A DNA stretch of 64,000 bases, taken from assembly GCF_016809835.1 (NCBI RefSeq), contig NZ_JAFBIL020000005.1, positions 62,001-126,000 of the forward strand. The letters run 5' to 3'. The position numbers and the translations under genes are program-made. Under the pieces are notes generated by a model, which was not told where the DNA came from, made no database searches, and saw nothing but the letters and a program-made list of their open reading frames with translations. This DNA comes from Massilia soli. GTDB taxonomy: Bacteria; Pseudomonadota; Gammaproteobacteria; Burkholderiales; Burkholderiaceae_D. This document shows positions 57,614 through 61,740 of the stretch, piece by piece (position 1 is the first letter of the stretch; each line of letters starts with the position of its first letter).

Positions 57614-58237
57614 ATGCCAGTTGCCGCGCGCGGGCGCCTCACCGGGCTGTCGCTGGCGCTATGCCTGCATGCGGCCTTCGTTGCACTGTTCCTGTGGCAG
57701 CCGAAATCCCTTCCCGATGCGCCGGACCCTTCGCGCATGGCGCTGGTATGGGCCAGGCCGGTCGCCGAGGCCGCGCCGGCGTCGCCGGCGCGGCCCAGAT
57801 CGGCGGCGTCACGTCCGGCGCACCGCAAGCGCGCCCCCGCCGCTGCCGTACCGCTGCGCGACACATCTGCGCCTGTACCCGCGGCCGAACCGATTCTTGA
57901 GTCCGATTCCGCCGACCCGTTTGACACGCCCAACAGCGTTGTTGCGACATCGTTCGACAAAGCCGTGATGGGAACGGCGATCAAGGTCGCCATGGCCGAA
58001 CGCCAGGCGCTGGAAGACACCCAAAAATTCGTCAAATCGGGACGCGGAAGAACCAGGCACGAGCAGTTCGCAGCCGACGTCGAAGACGCTACCACTCCCT
58101 ACTGCCTTGGCAGCGATTCGATGAAGCACACGCCGCCGGTTATCGATGTTGGTGGCGTGAAAATCGGAATGGGCAACCTGCTTGCCCTGCCCTTTTTCGT
58201 GAAGGCAGTTGCCACCGGTAAGTGCCGCATCAAGTAG
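57614..58237 (+). CDS. Membrane-anchored Ala/Pro-rich protein of unknown function
   Basis: A 207-residue protein. An N-terminal transmembrane segment (~10-28, LSLALCLHAAFVALFLW) is followed by a ~70-residue Ala/Pro/Arg-rich periplasmic stretch, an acidic part and a C-terminal domain with two cysteines (YCLG and GKCRIK). The first half resembles TonB-like anchors in style, but the C-terminal TonB domain is absent. It lies just upstream of the TPP riboswitch and after the SRPBCC gene. Confidence 0.65.
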   Translation: MPVAARGRLTGLSLALCLHAAFVALFLWQPKSLPDAPDPSRMALVWARPVAEAAPASPARPRSAASRPAHRKRAPAAAVPLRDTSAPVPAAEPILESDSADPFDTPNSVVATSFDKAVMGTAIKVAMAERQALEDTQKFVKSGRGRTRHEQFAADVEDATTPYCLGSDSMKHTPPVIDVGGVKIGMGNLLALPFFVKAVATGKCRIK

Positions 58238-58270
58238 GCCGCGCGCACCCCGTTCGTGATAAAATCGCAT

Positions 58271-58350
58271 TTCGCTAGGGGTCCTGGAACGCAAGTTCCG
58301 GGTGAGAGATACCCTTCGTACCTGATCTGGATAATGCCAGCGAAGGAAAG
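58271..58350 (+). ncRNA. TPP (THI-box) riboswitch
   Basis: The conserved core is clear: GTGAGAGATACCC (58302-58314, CUGAGA-type loop), ACCTGATCTGGATAATGCC (58320-58338) and GCGAAGGAA. The P1 ends TTCGCT (58271-58276) and AGCGAA (58339-58344) pair, and a P3-like hairpin GGAAC-GCAA-GTTCC lies at 58286-58299. Downstream, TACGCGC (58409-58415) and GCGCGTA (58426-58432) form a hairpin just before the start codon, which could be the expression platform acting on translation. Thiamin pyrophosphate binding should repress the TonB receptor. Confidence 0.95.
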
Positions 58351-58446
58351 CGCAAAGTCTGTTTCCCTCTTTGTTTGCTCCCCCACGTTGGCTCCGGCTT
58401 TTTAAAGCTACGCGCAGCATTTGCAGCGCGTAAAACGAGCACACCC

Positions 58447-60570
58447 ATGTTGACACCACACCTGAAACAATCTGCGATTGCGCTTGCGCTGCTGCAGGCC
58501 TACGCCCTTTCCGTCCACGCGCAAGAGACCATGCCAGAGGTCGTCATTACCGGCCAGTCGGTCGCGACCAGCCGCGCCGCCATTGGCGGGTTCTCCGAAA
58601 CGCCGCTGCTGTACACGCCTGCTTCGATCACCGCGATCAGCCGCGAGCAAATGCAGGACCTGAGCATCCGCACCACCACCGACGCCGCCAAATTCGACGC
58701 CAGCATCAGCGACTCGTACAACGCCGTCGGCTACGCCGAGCAGTTCTCGATCCGCGGCTTCACGCTCGACAACAGCTCCAGCTACCGCAAGGACGGCATG
58801 GCGATTCCGGCCGACGCCCAGATCCCGCTGGAAAACAAGGAACGCATCGAAGTGCTCAAGGGCCTGGCTGGGCTGCAGGCTGGCGTCGCCGCGCCCGGCG
58901 GCATCGTCAATTACGTGACCAAGCGCCCGACCAATGCGCCACTGCGCTCGGCGACGGTGGAAGTAAAGGAGCGCGGCAATGTATATGGCGCGATCGACCT
59001 GGGCGGCCGCTCCGACGACAAGCGCTTCGGCTACCGCATCAACGCCGCCGCCGAACGCCTGCGCTCGTATGTCAAAGGCGCCGATGGCGAACGCGAATTC
59101 TATTCAGGCGCGTTCGACTGGCAGATCTCCCCGGCGGCGCTGCTGCAGCTGGACATGGACTACCAGCACAAGTCGCAGATCACCGCGCCTGGCTATCAGC
59201 TGATACGCAATGAATTGCTGCCAACCGGCGTGTCGGCCAAGACGCTGCTGAACGCGCAGCCGTGGACCAAGCCGGTCGACTCCAAGAGCACCAACGTCGG
59301 CCTGCGTTTCGAGTACCTGTTCGCCAACGGCTGGCGCGCCAGCATCTCGGCCAACAAGCACAAGTTCCAGCGCGACGATTACACCGCCTTCCCTTACGGC
59401 TGCAGCAATGAAGGCGACGGCTTCTATCCGGGCTACTGCTCGAACGGCGACTACGACGTCTACGACTACCAGAGCGTTGGCGAATCGAAGTCCCCGTTCG
59501 GCGCGCAGGCGCTTTTGCAGGGCAAGTTCAGCACCGGCGCGGTCGCGCATGACCTGACCATCGGCAGCTCGCTGTTCCGCCGCAGCGATCGTTTCGGCGA
59601 CTATGTGTACGACTACGCTGGCTCGTCGAACATTTATCAGAACGTGATCGTACCGCCCGCGCCGGACAGCCGGACGACCGGGCCGGTATTCGAACGCCGG
59701 AAGGAGAATGAGCGCTCAGTGTTCGCACAGGACGTGCTGACGCTGTCGCAGAAGTTCAAGCTGCATGCGGGCGTGCGTCATGTGCAAGTCAAGCGCACCG
59801 AGTTCGAGGTCGATCCGAGCGACACCAGCTTCACGCTGCCGAATGTCGCGCTGGTGTACAACCCGACCCAGGACTGGACCGTGTACGGCTCCATGGCGCA
59901 CGGTCTTGAGCACGGCGGCATCGCACCGATCGAAACCACCAACGCCAACCGCGCGCTCGATCCGAGCCGCTCGAAACAGCTGGAGTTCGGCGTCAAGGGC
60001 GCGATCAACAACAGCATCAACGTGTCGGCGGCCGTATTCCAGGTCACCAAAGGGCTTGAGTACACGCAGGCCAACGCCGATGGCATCACCTCCACCTATG
60101 TGCGTGCGGGTGAGGCCGAGCATCGCGGCGTGGAGCTTGGCGTGCAGGGCAAGGCAGCGCGCAATCTGCAGTATTCCGTGTCGGTCGCCGCGCTCGATAC
60201 CGAGCAGTCCGGCACCGGCCAGCCGGGCATGGACGGCAAGCGCGTGACCAATGTGCCGAAGCTGAAATCGACCGCGTGGGTTGAATACGCGGTGCCGGGC
60301 GTGGATGGCCTGAGCGTGAACGGCGTGTGGCAGTACGCGGGACGCAAGGCGTTTGACGTCGACAACCGGGTGTTCGTGCCGTCGTATCACACGCTTGACC
60401 TGGGCGCCGCGTACGAAACCGGCAGCATGGATACGCGGATCACATGGCGCGCTGGCGTGCAGAACGTGACCGACAAGTTCTACTGGCGCGATGTGACGCC
60501 GGCGCTGGGCGGCTACCTGCTGCCGGGTGCACCGCGCACGTTCAGGGTGTCGGCGCAGTTCGACTTTTAA
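58447..60570 (+). CDS. TonB-dependent outer-membrane receptor under TPP riboswitch control
   Basis: A 707-residue receptor. The signal peptide ends VHAQ (~24), the TonB-box-like MPEVVITGQ follows, then the plug domain (~45-150) and a 22-strand barrel ending in the typical terminal aromatic (SAQFDF). By sequence style it resembles siderophore receptors (e.g. GLEHGGIAP and NVTDKFYW blocks), but the TPP riboswitch upstream argues for uptake of thiamin or a precursor. The ATG at 58447 is chosen because it gives a proper signal peptide; the ORF is open further upstream into the riboswitch region. Confidence 0.93.
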   Translation: MLTPHLKQSAIALALLQAYALSVHAQETMPEVVITGQSVATSRAAIGGFSETPLLYTPASITAISREQMQDLSIRTTTDAAKFDASISDSYNAVGYAEQFSIRGFTLDNSSSYRKDGMAIPADAQIPLENKERIEVLKGLAGLQAGVAAPGGIVNYVTKRPTNAPLRSATVEVKERGNVYGAIDLGGRSDDKRFGYRINAAAERLRSYVKGADGEREFYSGAFDWQISPAALLQLDMDYQHKSQITAPGYQLIRNELLPTGVSAKTLLNAQPWTKPVDSKSTNVGLRFEYLFANGWRASISANKHKFQRDDYTAFPYGCSNEGDGFYPGYCSNGDYDVYDYQSVGESKSPFGAQALLQGKFSTGAVAHDLTIGSSLFRRSDRFGDYVYDYAGSSNIYQNVIVPPAPDSRTTGPVFERRKENERSVFAQDVLTLSQKFKLHAGVRHVQVKRTEFEVDPSDTSFTLPNVALVYNPTQDWTVYGSMAHGLEHGGIAPIETTNANRALDPSRSKQLEFGVKGAINNSINVSAAVFQVTKGLEYTQANADGITSTYVRAGEAEHRGVELGVQGKAARNLQYSVSVAALDTEQSGTGQPGMDGKRVTNVPKLKSTAWVEYAVPGVDGLSVNGVWQYAGRKAFDVDNRVFVPSYHTLDLGAAYETGSMDTRITWRAGVQNVTDKFYWRDVTPALGGYLLPGAPRTFRVSAQFDF

Positions 60571-60581
60571 GTGAGTCAAGC

Positions 60582-60613
60582 CGGCGGATGACGGCCTCCG
60601 GCCTCGTCCGCCG
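60582..60613. terminator. Hairpin between the TonB receptor and the NadR-like gene
   Basis: CGGCGGATGACGGC and GGCCTCGTCCGCCG form an imperfect stem around a CTCC centre. It sits 11 bases after the TonB receptor stop and 6 bases before the convergent gene's stop, so it can serve both. Its CGGCGGA core resembles the dispersed repeat at 40322-40393. Confidence 0.5.
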
Positions 60614-60619
60614 AGCTGA

Positions 60620-61141
60620 TTAAACGGCCACCTTCAGGAACCGGTCCACCTGCAGCACCCGCTCGGGCAGGCTGCCAGTGACCAGCATGAACCGAATAGC
60701 TCGCTCGTCGAGCGTCTGCACCACTTCCTCATGCACGGCCTGGCGCACTTCCTCCGACTCGCGCTGAAGGCCGTCCGGGATCCACGGACTGTCAGGCGCG
60801 GTCACCAAAGTGAACGCGTAGTCATGCGCCAGTTCCAGATCCCCCAGCTCCTCATCCACCCTGCCCCAGTAATGCCGGCTGTAGATCGCGGTCATCAACG
60901 GCGTGGTATCGCAGAACAAGAAACGCTTGGCCTGCTGCATGGCCGCGTCCTCACGCTCGCGCTGCGTGCGCGCGATATCGAACTGTTCGTGCTCCTGCGG
61001 GACGCGCCCCCTGGTGTCGACGAATTCGCGCAGGTATTCGGGCACCCAGACGGTGCCGAAGTGCGTGGCCAGCGCCGCCGCCAGGGTCGATTTTCCTGAC
61101 GACTCCGCGCCCAGGATCGCTACGCGTAAAACACCGCTCAT
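60620..61141 (-). CDS. AAA/P-loop ATPase, NadR-like kinase
   Basis: A 173-residue P-loop protein with Walker A GAESSGKSTLA at ~8-18 and a kinase-like pattern (FCDTTPLMTAIYSRHYWG, RFMLVTGSLPERV). It resembles the kinase domain of NadR, which phosphorylates ribosylnicotinamide. Such a kinase is often encoded with PnuC permeases to trap the imported vitamin by phosphorylation. Its start overlaps the pnuC stop by four bases (ATGA), so it is translationally coupled. Substrate could be nicotinamide riboside or thiamin. Confidence 0.82.
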   Translation of the reverse strand: MSGVLRVAILGAESSGKSTLAAALATHFGTVWVPEYLREFVDTRGRVPQEHEQFDIARTQREREDAAMQQAKRFLFCDTTPLMTAIYSRHYWGRVDEELGDLELAHDYAFTLVTAPDSPWIPDGLQRESEEVRQAVHEEVVQTLDERAIRFMLVTGSLPERVLQVDRFLKVAV

Positions 61142-61740
61142 GCCTTCACCTCCTGTTGCGCGATGTTGCTCCAGGTGCGCAGCCCGATCCATGCCAGCAC
61201 GATGAACACCGCGTACAGAATCGCCGTCAGCATCAGGCCCTTGTAGACATACAGGCCGACATACAGGACATCGACCGCGATCCAGACGTGCCAGTTCTCG
61301 ACCTTCTTGCGTGACAGCAGCAGCTGTCCGACCAGGCTGCCGGCAGTGAGGAAGCCGTCAATGTGCGGCACATCGGTGTTGGTCCAGGTGCGCAGGAACA
61401 GCGCGATCAAAACAAAGCCGACCAGCCACGCGCCGAGGGAATACAGCTTTCCACTTCGGTCAAGGTGGGTGACATGCAGCGGCTCATGGCGCGTGCCGCC
61501 GTACAGCCACATGTACCAGCCCCAGACCGACACCGCGATGAACACGACCTGCAGGGCCATATCGCCGTACAGCCGCGCGCCGAAGAACACCACGCCATAG
61601 GTCGCCGACGACAGGATCGAGAACAGCCAGGCCCAATGCGTCTGGCGGATGTTGAGCACAACTGTGATGACCGCGAGTACGAAAGAAACTAGTTCAAGCG
61701 GGGTGGTCGTGAAACCGAGCAAGGGGATCGAATCGTTCAT
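61138..61740 (-). CDS. pnuC: PnuC-family vitamin transporter
   Basis: A 200-residue inner-membrane protein with about seven helices and the PnuC family features: NIRQTHWAWLFSILSSATYGVVFF near 35-58, the WGWYMWLYGG motif and ENWHVWIAVDVLYVGLYVYKG near 150. Members move nicotinamide riboside (PnuC), thiamin (PnuT) or riboflavin (PnuX) by facilitated diffusion. The coupled kinase gene and the facing TPP-riboswitch-controlled TonB receptor make thiamin a serious alternative to nicotinamide riboside. The ATG at 61738-61740 (MNDSIPLLG) is preferred. Confidence 0.88.
   Translation of the reverse strand: MNDSIPLLGFTTTPLELVSFVLAVITVVLNIRQTHWAWLFSILSSATYGVVFFGARLYGDMALQVVFIAVSVWGWYMWLYGGTRHEPLHVTHLDRSGKLYSLGAWLVGFVLIALFLRTWTNTDVPHIDGFLTAGSLVGQLLLSRKKVENWHVWIAVDVLYVGLYVYKGLMLTAILYAVFIVLAWIGLRTWSNIAQQEVKA

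Follow-up and report, generated by a model that had tools for sequence, protein, structure and literature searches.

The locus described here raises a question of substrate. By similarity alone its TonB-dependent receptor would be named a siderophore receptor (TIGR01783, 369 bits), the Pfam and NCBIfam names of its permease and kinase come from NAD metabolism, and a TPP riboswitch precedes the receptor. We asked which compound these proteins handle and concluded that the locus is quite probably a thiamin scavenging system. Its features are listed in Table 1, with positions in the window, that is, the whole 64 kb stretch of Massilia soli DNA that was analysed.

Table 1. Features of the locus, in order along the window.
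Feature	Position	Strand	Basis
TPP riboswitch aptamer (RF00059)	58267..58365	+	cmscan 69.7 bits, E 1.2e-11, full model
Leader between aptamer and receptor start	58366..58446	+	comparison of post-aptamer leaders
TonB-dependent outer-membrane receptor, predicted thiamin receptor (Omr/OMthi-like)	58447..60570	+	Pfam Plug and barrel, TIGR01783
Gap between the convergent genes, with inverted repeat (GGCGGA-GA-GGCC)	60580..60619	.	read directly from sequence
AAA_28/NadR-kinase-like P-loop kinase, 173 aa, predicted thiamin kinase	60620..61141	-	Pfam AAA_28 126 bits, alignment, tree
ATGA overlap of pnuC stop and kinase start (translational-coupling geometry)	61138..61141	-	sequence
PnuC-family inner-membrane permease, 200 aa, predicted thiamin transporter (PnuT-type)	61138..61740	-	PF04973 176 bits

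The aptamer matched positions 1-105 of the 105 in the RF00059 model, scoring well above the gathering score of 54.3 bits, and was the only Rfam match in the window. The receptor gene, which starts with ATG and has 708 codons with the stop counted, encodes the Plug (PF07715) and TonB_dep_Rec barrel (PF00593) domains of TonB-dependent receptors. The permease matched PF04973 (NMN_transporter) at 175.7 bits over the full length (residues 14-191). For the kinase, which matched PF13521 (AAA_28), the alignment showed an invariant Walker A and FCDT motif, including the P-loop kinase residues G11, S14, G16, K17 and D78. It partially matched the kinase half of NadR (TIGR01526, 96.5 bits where the cut-off is 341), has no NMN adenylyltransferase domain, and matched neither the ThiK (TIGR02721) nor the TPK (PF04263) family model. 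Its start is preceded by AGGAGGTG, and an ATGA-type overlap with pnuC was the commonest arrangement among relatives (64 of 80). The original prediction had described a clear TPP riboswitch before a receptor called a siderophore receptor by similarity, and, facing it, a translationally coupled PnuC-family permease and NadR-like kinase with no riboswitch of their own. This description held in every part. The Rfam scan of the window found no riboswitch upstream of pnuC, and no shared regulatory motif was seen upstream of pnuC in 19 relatives.

The association of the three genes was then sought in a family sample of 196 genomes, which contained 85 kinase loci, and in 80 named relatives. In the family sample the kinase gene immediately followed pnuC, both on one strand, in 84 of 84 cases, in addition to one genome (G018) with a split match. 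For the named relatives, pnuC was directly upstream of the kinase gene in all 80, a TPP-regulated receptor was within 8 kb in 60, and in 60 the aptamer was directly upstream of the homologous receptor. A TPP element was found within 20 kb of 72 of the 85 kinase loci; of the 13 others, 8 were in Undibacterium and 5 on short contigs. In Undibacterium the parts are unlinked, with the TPP-regulated receptor still in the same genome in the 7 of 7 examined. Of 54 lone pnuC and 11 NadR-type loci, none had a TPP element nearby among the matches listed, and a sample of these contrast loci was rechecked with model R1. Two or more TPP elements were present genome-wide in 82 of 85 kinase genomes versus 5 of 111 others (raw counts, with related genomes counted individually). 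Rather than standing with NAD genes and apart from TPP-regulated receptors, the pair thus tracked these receptors across Oxalobacteraceae and one Methylophilaceae genome (the named relatives with the pair include Methylobacillus rhizosphaerae), and the NAD-linked pnuC genes belonged to another clade. In one genome (G057) the riboswitch, receptor, pnuC and kinase gene are all on one strand, apparently as a single TPP-led operon. The parts of the locus are separable because two genomes (G173 and G195) have a TPP-regulated receptor without a pnuC match, and the g26 genomes (L092) have a PnuC of the kinase-linked clade but neither the kinase nor a TPP element beside it. In a class-wide sample of 369 genomes, relatives of the kinase outside this group were mostly NadR; the few others were kinases standing alone or paired with pnuC (L240, L243), and they lacked TPP elements.

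From these associations a route for thiamin can be proposed. At low cellular TPP, the riboswitch, which by analogy with known TPP riboswitches would be an OFF switch, would permit synthesis of the receptor, and this would carry thiamin across the outer membrane. At the inner membrane, the permease would let thiamin equilibrate by facilitated diffusion. The coupled kinase would trap the vitamin by converting it to thiamin monophosphate, from which ThiL, whose gene lies elsewhere in the genome, would make TPP. Judged from the riboswitch and the gene context, the receptor almost certainly serves thiamin. The permease very probably does so, and the kinase probably does, with the monophosphate as its predicted product.

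The assignment of the kinase depends on which other enzymes could phosphorylate thiamin. ThiL was present where examined (309 bits in M. soli), thiamin pyrophosphokinase (TPK) was found in 1 of the 196 family genomes, not that of M. soli, and no ThiK scored above the cut-off in any of the 196; therefore, the kinase is the best candidate for conversion of thiamin to thiamin phosphate. The proposed sequence, thiamin to thiamin phosphate and then to TPP by ThiL, is that of Escherichia coli ThiK (YcfN) and ThiL, although ThiK is an APH-fold enzyme. It is unlikely, though the most serious of the other readings, that the receptor and permease carry thiamin while thiamin phosphate comes from an APH-type kinase that has escaped recognition, the NadR-like kinase having a different role, such as regulation of the permease or action on some other vitamin or nucleoside. 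Sub-threshold APH-family matches to ThiK in 63 of 196 genomes, including that of M. soli, are consistent with it. So is another lineage (L091, L093) whose clusters likewise hold a receptor, a PnuC and a kinase together, the kinase being APH/homoserine-kinase-like; these clusters differ in the unrelated kinase fold, in a more distant receptor (41-43%) and PnuC, and in having no TPP riboswitch nearby. However, the strict pairing of pnuC and kinase gene with translational overlap counts against this reading, and an APH-type kinase filling the same slot in another lineage is what functional replacement would predict.

We consider it improbable that the receptor serves thiamin and that the pnuC-kinase pair is simply a neighbour, with a role in salvaging nicotinamide riboside. 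The only characterised relatives of the kinase, the NadR kinase domains, phosphorylate nicotinamide riboside, and the database names of both proteins and the lack of a TPP element of their own in the window would fit such a role. Against it stand the tight association with TPP-regulated receptors, unlinked cases included, and the apparent operon in G057. In the PnuC tree, the kinase-linked clade of 47 sequences was separated from the NAD-linked PnuCs with an SH-aLRT of 100. A comparison of residues pointed the same way: all 47 have Asp157, whereas in NAD-linked PnuCs, E. coli PnuC and 4QTN this position of WxxWxxxN is mostly Asn, so that the M. soli permease departs from PnuC in the strict sense, the nicotinamide riboside transporter, in both clade and residue. 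Its genetic link to TPP-regulated genes is that expected of PnuT. Within the same family, pnuC genes for NAD salvage adjoin full-length NadR, NadM-Nudix or NAMPT genes without TPP elements, and the two kinds of PnuC occur together in some genomes, such as G171, G183 and G139. An NAD role for the pair, which the original prediction had kept in play, is therefore contradicted by neighbours, trees and co-occurrence, and the comparative sequence evidence strongly favours thiamin over nicotinamide riboside as the predicted substrate.

The original prediction also allowed for transport of either thiamin or a precursor through both membranes. The part concerning thiamin gained support from the link to TPP-regulated receptors and from genomes without thiC, and the part concerning a precursor became much less likely. 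TPP riboswitches control precursor salvage too (PMC3766115), and the M. soli genome, with ThiC and ThiG, makes thiamin itself and therefore could use a precursor. There is accordingly a small chance that the system imports and phosphorylates a precursor or breakdown product of thiamin, such as HMP, hydroxyethylthiazole or formylaminopyrimidine. However, the complete locus with intact frames is kept in two genomes lacking thiC, G098 and G574. G098 (110 contigs; ThiL 315 bits) lacks both thiC and thiG, although the absence of thiG could be an assembly gap, and therefore a single precursor would not suffice for thiamin there; in G574 (2 contigs) thiC was the thiamin-synthesis gene examined. PnuT homologues of known function also carry thiamin (PMC5613172, PMC7749635). 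Because these two genomes keep the locus, thiamin itself appears a much more likely substrate than a precursor.

That the receptor is a siderophore receptor with an incidental TPP element is very improbable: its sequence family and the nearest solved structures, FemA and BauA, are those of siderophore receptors, but the aptamer lies directly upstream of its homologue in 60 named loci and also directly precedes the unlinked Undibacterium receptors.

The combination of a TPP-controlled receptor with PnuT is already known. Most Bacteroides genomes have the receptor, PnuT and tnr3 genes together in one operon, and growth at low thiamin is severely impaired when receptor and PnuT are both lost (PMC5613172). 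The locus studied here resembles these OMthi-PnuT-Tnr3 operons in its riboswitch-regulated TonB receptor, PnuC-family permease and, as predicted, thiamin-phosphorylating enzyme. It differs in that the kinase is AAA_28/NadR-kinase-like, not a thiamin pyrophosphokinase, that TPP would come via ThiL, and that the permease and kinase genes are usually convergent with the receptor gene and outside its riboswitch. With the PnuC-NadR nicotinamide riboside salvage of E. coli, H. influenzae and L. lactis (PMC7221760) it shares the PnuC fold, a NadR-family kinase and, as proposed here, facilitated diffusion with a phosphorylation trap. Unlike that system, it has no adenylyltransferase domain on the kinase and no NAD gene neighbours, and its PnuC clade has WxxWxxxD instead of WxxWxxxN and is linked to TPP-regulated receptors.

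To our knowledge, the variant with a NadR-kinase-like partner in a thiamin uptake set has not been described before, and this partner is a candidate for a new family of thiamin kinases. We found no paper linking a NadR-like kinase with thiamin; an earlier prediction may exist, for example in RegPrecise or SEED. With somewhat less confidence than for thiamin as the kinase substrate, we propose that this 173-residue protein represents a new, non-orthologous thiamin kinase family derived from nicotinamide riboside kinases, and that the PnuC relative changed from vitamin B3 to B1 in parallel. In much of Oxalobacteraceae the family would take the place of ThiK and TPK in salvaging thiamin, and it would provide the sole route to TPP in species without thiC such as G098 and G574, two genomes that make the claim directly testable. 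Most likely, bacteria of the Massilia group, which live in soil and water, have a B1 uptake set in which a kinase annotated under B3 metabolism phosphorylates B1 and fills a missing step. If so, annotations as siderophore receptor, nicotinamide riboside transporter and NAD-metabolism kinase would change to vitamin B1 uptake in many genomes, and the missing enzyme would be named as a thiamin kinase that belongs to neither of the families known so far, which number two. Permease and kinase would have changed vitamin together while keeping the same logic of trapping by phosphorylation.

The leader downstream of the aptamer contains a stretch, CACGTTGGCTCCGGCTTTTT, that is well conserved across many Massilia. 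On visual inspection, a possible translational sequestor of the receptor start (GTTTGCTC/GAGCAAAC) seemed conserved, but the test against shuffles was not significant, with only 4 of 55 leaders beating them at 0.05; simple promoter and terminator scans gave uninformative output. The inverted repeat in the gap may be a shared terminator of the convergent genes. Elsewhere in the M. soli genome, a weak ThiK/APH-type match (25 bits, well below the cut-off) could be another thiamin kinase.

The original prediction placed a TPP riboswitch, a TonB receptor and a facing pnuC-kinase pair at this locus, and its coordinates and description proved correct by Rfam, family models and direct reading of the sequence. 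The aptamer was the only Rfam match in the 64-kb window. The pnuC stop and the kinase start share the sequence ATGA, and the kinase gene has a strong ribosome-binding site. Many Massilia leaders share a strikingly conserved stretch, CACGTTGGCTCCGGCTTTTT, 3' of the aptamer (window 58366-58420; leaders in the relatives' loci L123-L170). A 207-aa ORF at 57614-58237, with a hydrophobic N-terminal stretch and a Pro/Ala-rich middle, had no Pfam match; among the 80 named loci it occurred only in the three nearest Massilia, where it lies about 1.3 kb from the receptor leader.

Features of the locus in the window
Feature	Position	Strand	Remarks
TPP aptamer, full	58267-58365	+	Rfam, 69.7 bits
TonB-dependent receptor	ATG 58447 to stop 60570	+	3' of aptamer; named siderophore receptor by family models
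AAA_28 kinase, 173 residues	60620-61141	-	convergent to receptor
PnuC-family permease, 200 residues	61138-61740	-	5' of kinase gene, convergent to receptor

Among named organisms, Massilia polaris and Massilia agrisoli (both Oxalobacteraceae; kinase identity 92-95%) are the closest. Each of the 84 strong cases in 196 family genomes had the kinase directly 3' of pnuC and on its strand; the order was the same in genome G018, where the kinase match was split. In the named loci, pnuC was directly 5' of the kinase in 80 of 80, and the start/stop overlap seen in the window recurred in 64.

The original prediction suggested looking for the three genes together in relatives. Among the matches listed, at least 62 of 85 pairs had a TPP element no more than 20 kb away, and a direct recheck of 18 other pairs added 10 (72/85 in all; largest distance 14.5 kb, in locus L121). 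The remaining 13 were eight Undibacterium loci and five on contigs too short to judge. A TPP element stood 5' of the homologous receptor in 60 of the 80 named loci, and in Undibacterium a TPP-led receptor was found elsewhere in the genome in all seven cases examined. No TPP element was found at 54 lone pnuC and 11 NadR-type loci among the matches listed, nor in a sample of these rescanned with our own model R1. Two or more TPP elements were present in 82 of 85 genomes with the kinase vs 5 of 111 without it (Fisher p ~1e-44, shared ancestry uncorrected). In genome G057, rearrangement has left the TPP element, receptor, a short gap, pnuC and the overlapping kinase on a single strand; in this arrangement, transcription of the pair would start from the TPP-controlled leader.

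The original prediction also allowed that the pair might serve nicotinamide riboside uptake, in which case it should accompany NAD genes and not TPP-regulated receptors. In genuine NAD loci of the same family, pnuC adjoins a NadR of full length, which carries both the adenylyltransferase signature and AAA_28; NadM-Nudix (L083) or NAMPT (L085) is a further neighbour. The window kinase lacks the adenylyltransferase domain and retains the Walker A lysine, the FCDT aspartate and the EYLRE motif. In the PnuC tree, the window's PnuC and all TPP-associated PnuCs fell in a 47-member clade (SH-aLRT 100), with the NAD-locus PnuCs outside it. This clade has WxxWxxxD; Asn replaces the Asp in 12 of 14 NAD-linked PnuCs, in E. 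coli PnuC and in the solved Neisseria PnuC (4QTN; Asn189, chain numbering counted from the alignment), though we claim no specificity role for this position. Several genomes carry both PnuC types (e.g., G171, G183, G139); the window's genome has only the thiamin type. At L092:8846-9448 (G026, genus g26), a PnuC belonging to the thiamin-type clade (66%) stood alone, with no kinase or TPP-receptor nearby. Stand-alone pnuC-kinase pairs of other Gammaproteobacteria (L240:8176-9260, L243:8600-9704) had no TPP element nearby and were distant from thiamin-type and NadR-type groups alike.

Unphosphorylated thiamin needs phosphorylation after uptake, and the substrate of ThiL is thiamin monophosphate. 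Thiamin pyrophosphokinase was found in one of 196 family genomes, not the window's, and ThiK above cut-off in none of the 196 (weak APH-family matches only). ThiL was found in the window's genome. The pnuC-coupled kinase is therefore the natural candidate for a thiamin kinase making the monophosphate. Separately, L091:5076-9172 and L093:3534-8931 hold a TonB receptor (41-43% to the window's), an APH-type kinase resembling homoserine kinases, and a PnuC from another branch, without a TPP element within these stretches; this cluster is possibly an alternative vitamin uptake system.

The aptamer, whose presence is observed, would govern receptor expression, probably as an OFF switch like TPP riboswitches in general. 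The receptor would import thiamin, energised by TonB. PnuC-type permeases act by facilitated diffusion with the substrate trapped by phosphorylation, as stated for PnuC/NadR in work that also cites PnuT (PMC7221760). The kinase would trap thiamin as the monophosphate, and ThiL would complete TPP. The genetically supported Bacteroides system, a TPP-regulated receptor, PnuT and a thiamin-phosphorylating enzyme (PMC5613172), is of the same overall kind but differs in kinase type. A TPP regulon survey placed Burkholderia and Ralstonia among lineages without TPP-regulated transporter genes (PMC3766115). The new element of the Massilia locus is the kinase type, although its priority is uncertain; we found no published proposal of such a kinase for thiamin in a search outside Rodionov 2002, Jaehme 2018, RegPrecise and SEED.

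The window's organism probably synthesises thiamin itself, since its genome has a ThiC-type sequence and a second TPP element with a ThiE-like gene downstream. Genome G098 (100% complete, 110 contigs) had no match to ThiC or ThiG; its receptor, TPP element, pnuC and kinase (L066 / L150) were all intact and ThiL scored 315 bits. ThiC was absent from 4 of 62 genomes of this genus, including G574, where an assembly gap is unlikely because the assembly has only two contigs. The partly tiled G574 (L268) has a complete locus, with a TPP element of 108.5 bits on model R1. From gene content, G098 and G574 are predicted thiamin auxotrophs, and retention of the locus there fits thiamin import better than import of one precursor. 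In genus g22, G173 and G195 had no pnuC match and carried the TPP-receptor (L215, L216); G151, G162 and G184 each had a pair of ThiG genes with equal scores, separated by about 70 kb, and the sampled genomes of the genus had three TPP elements among the matches listed.
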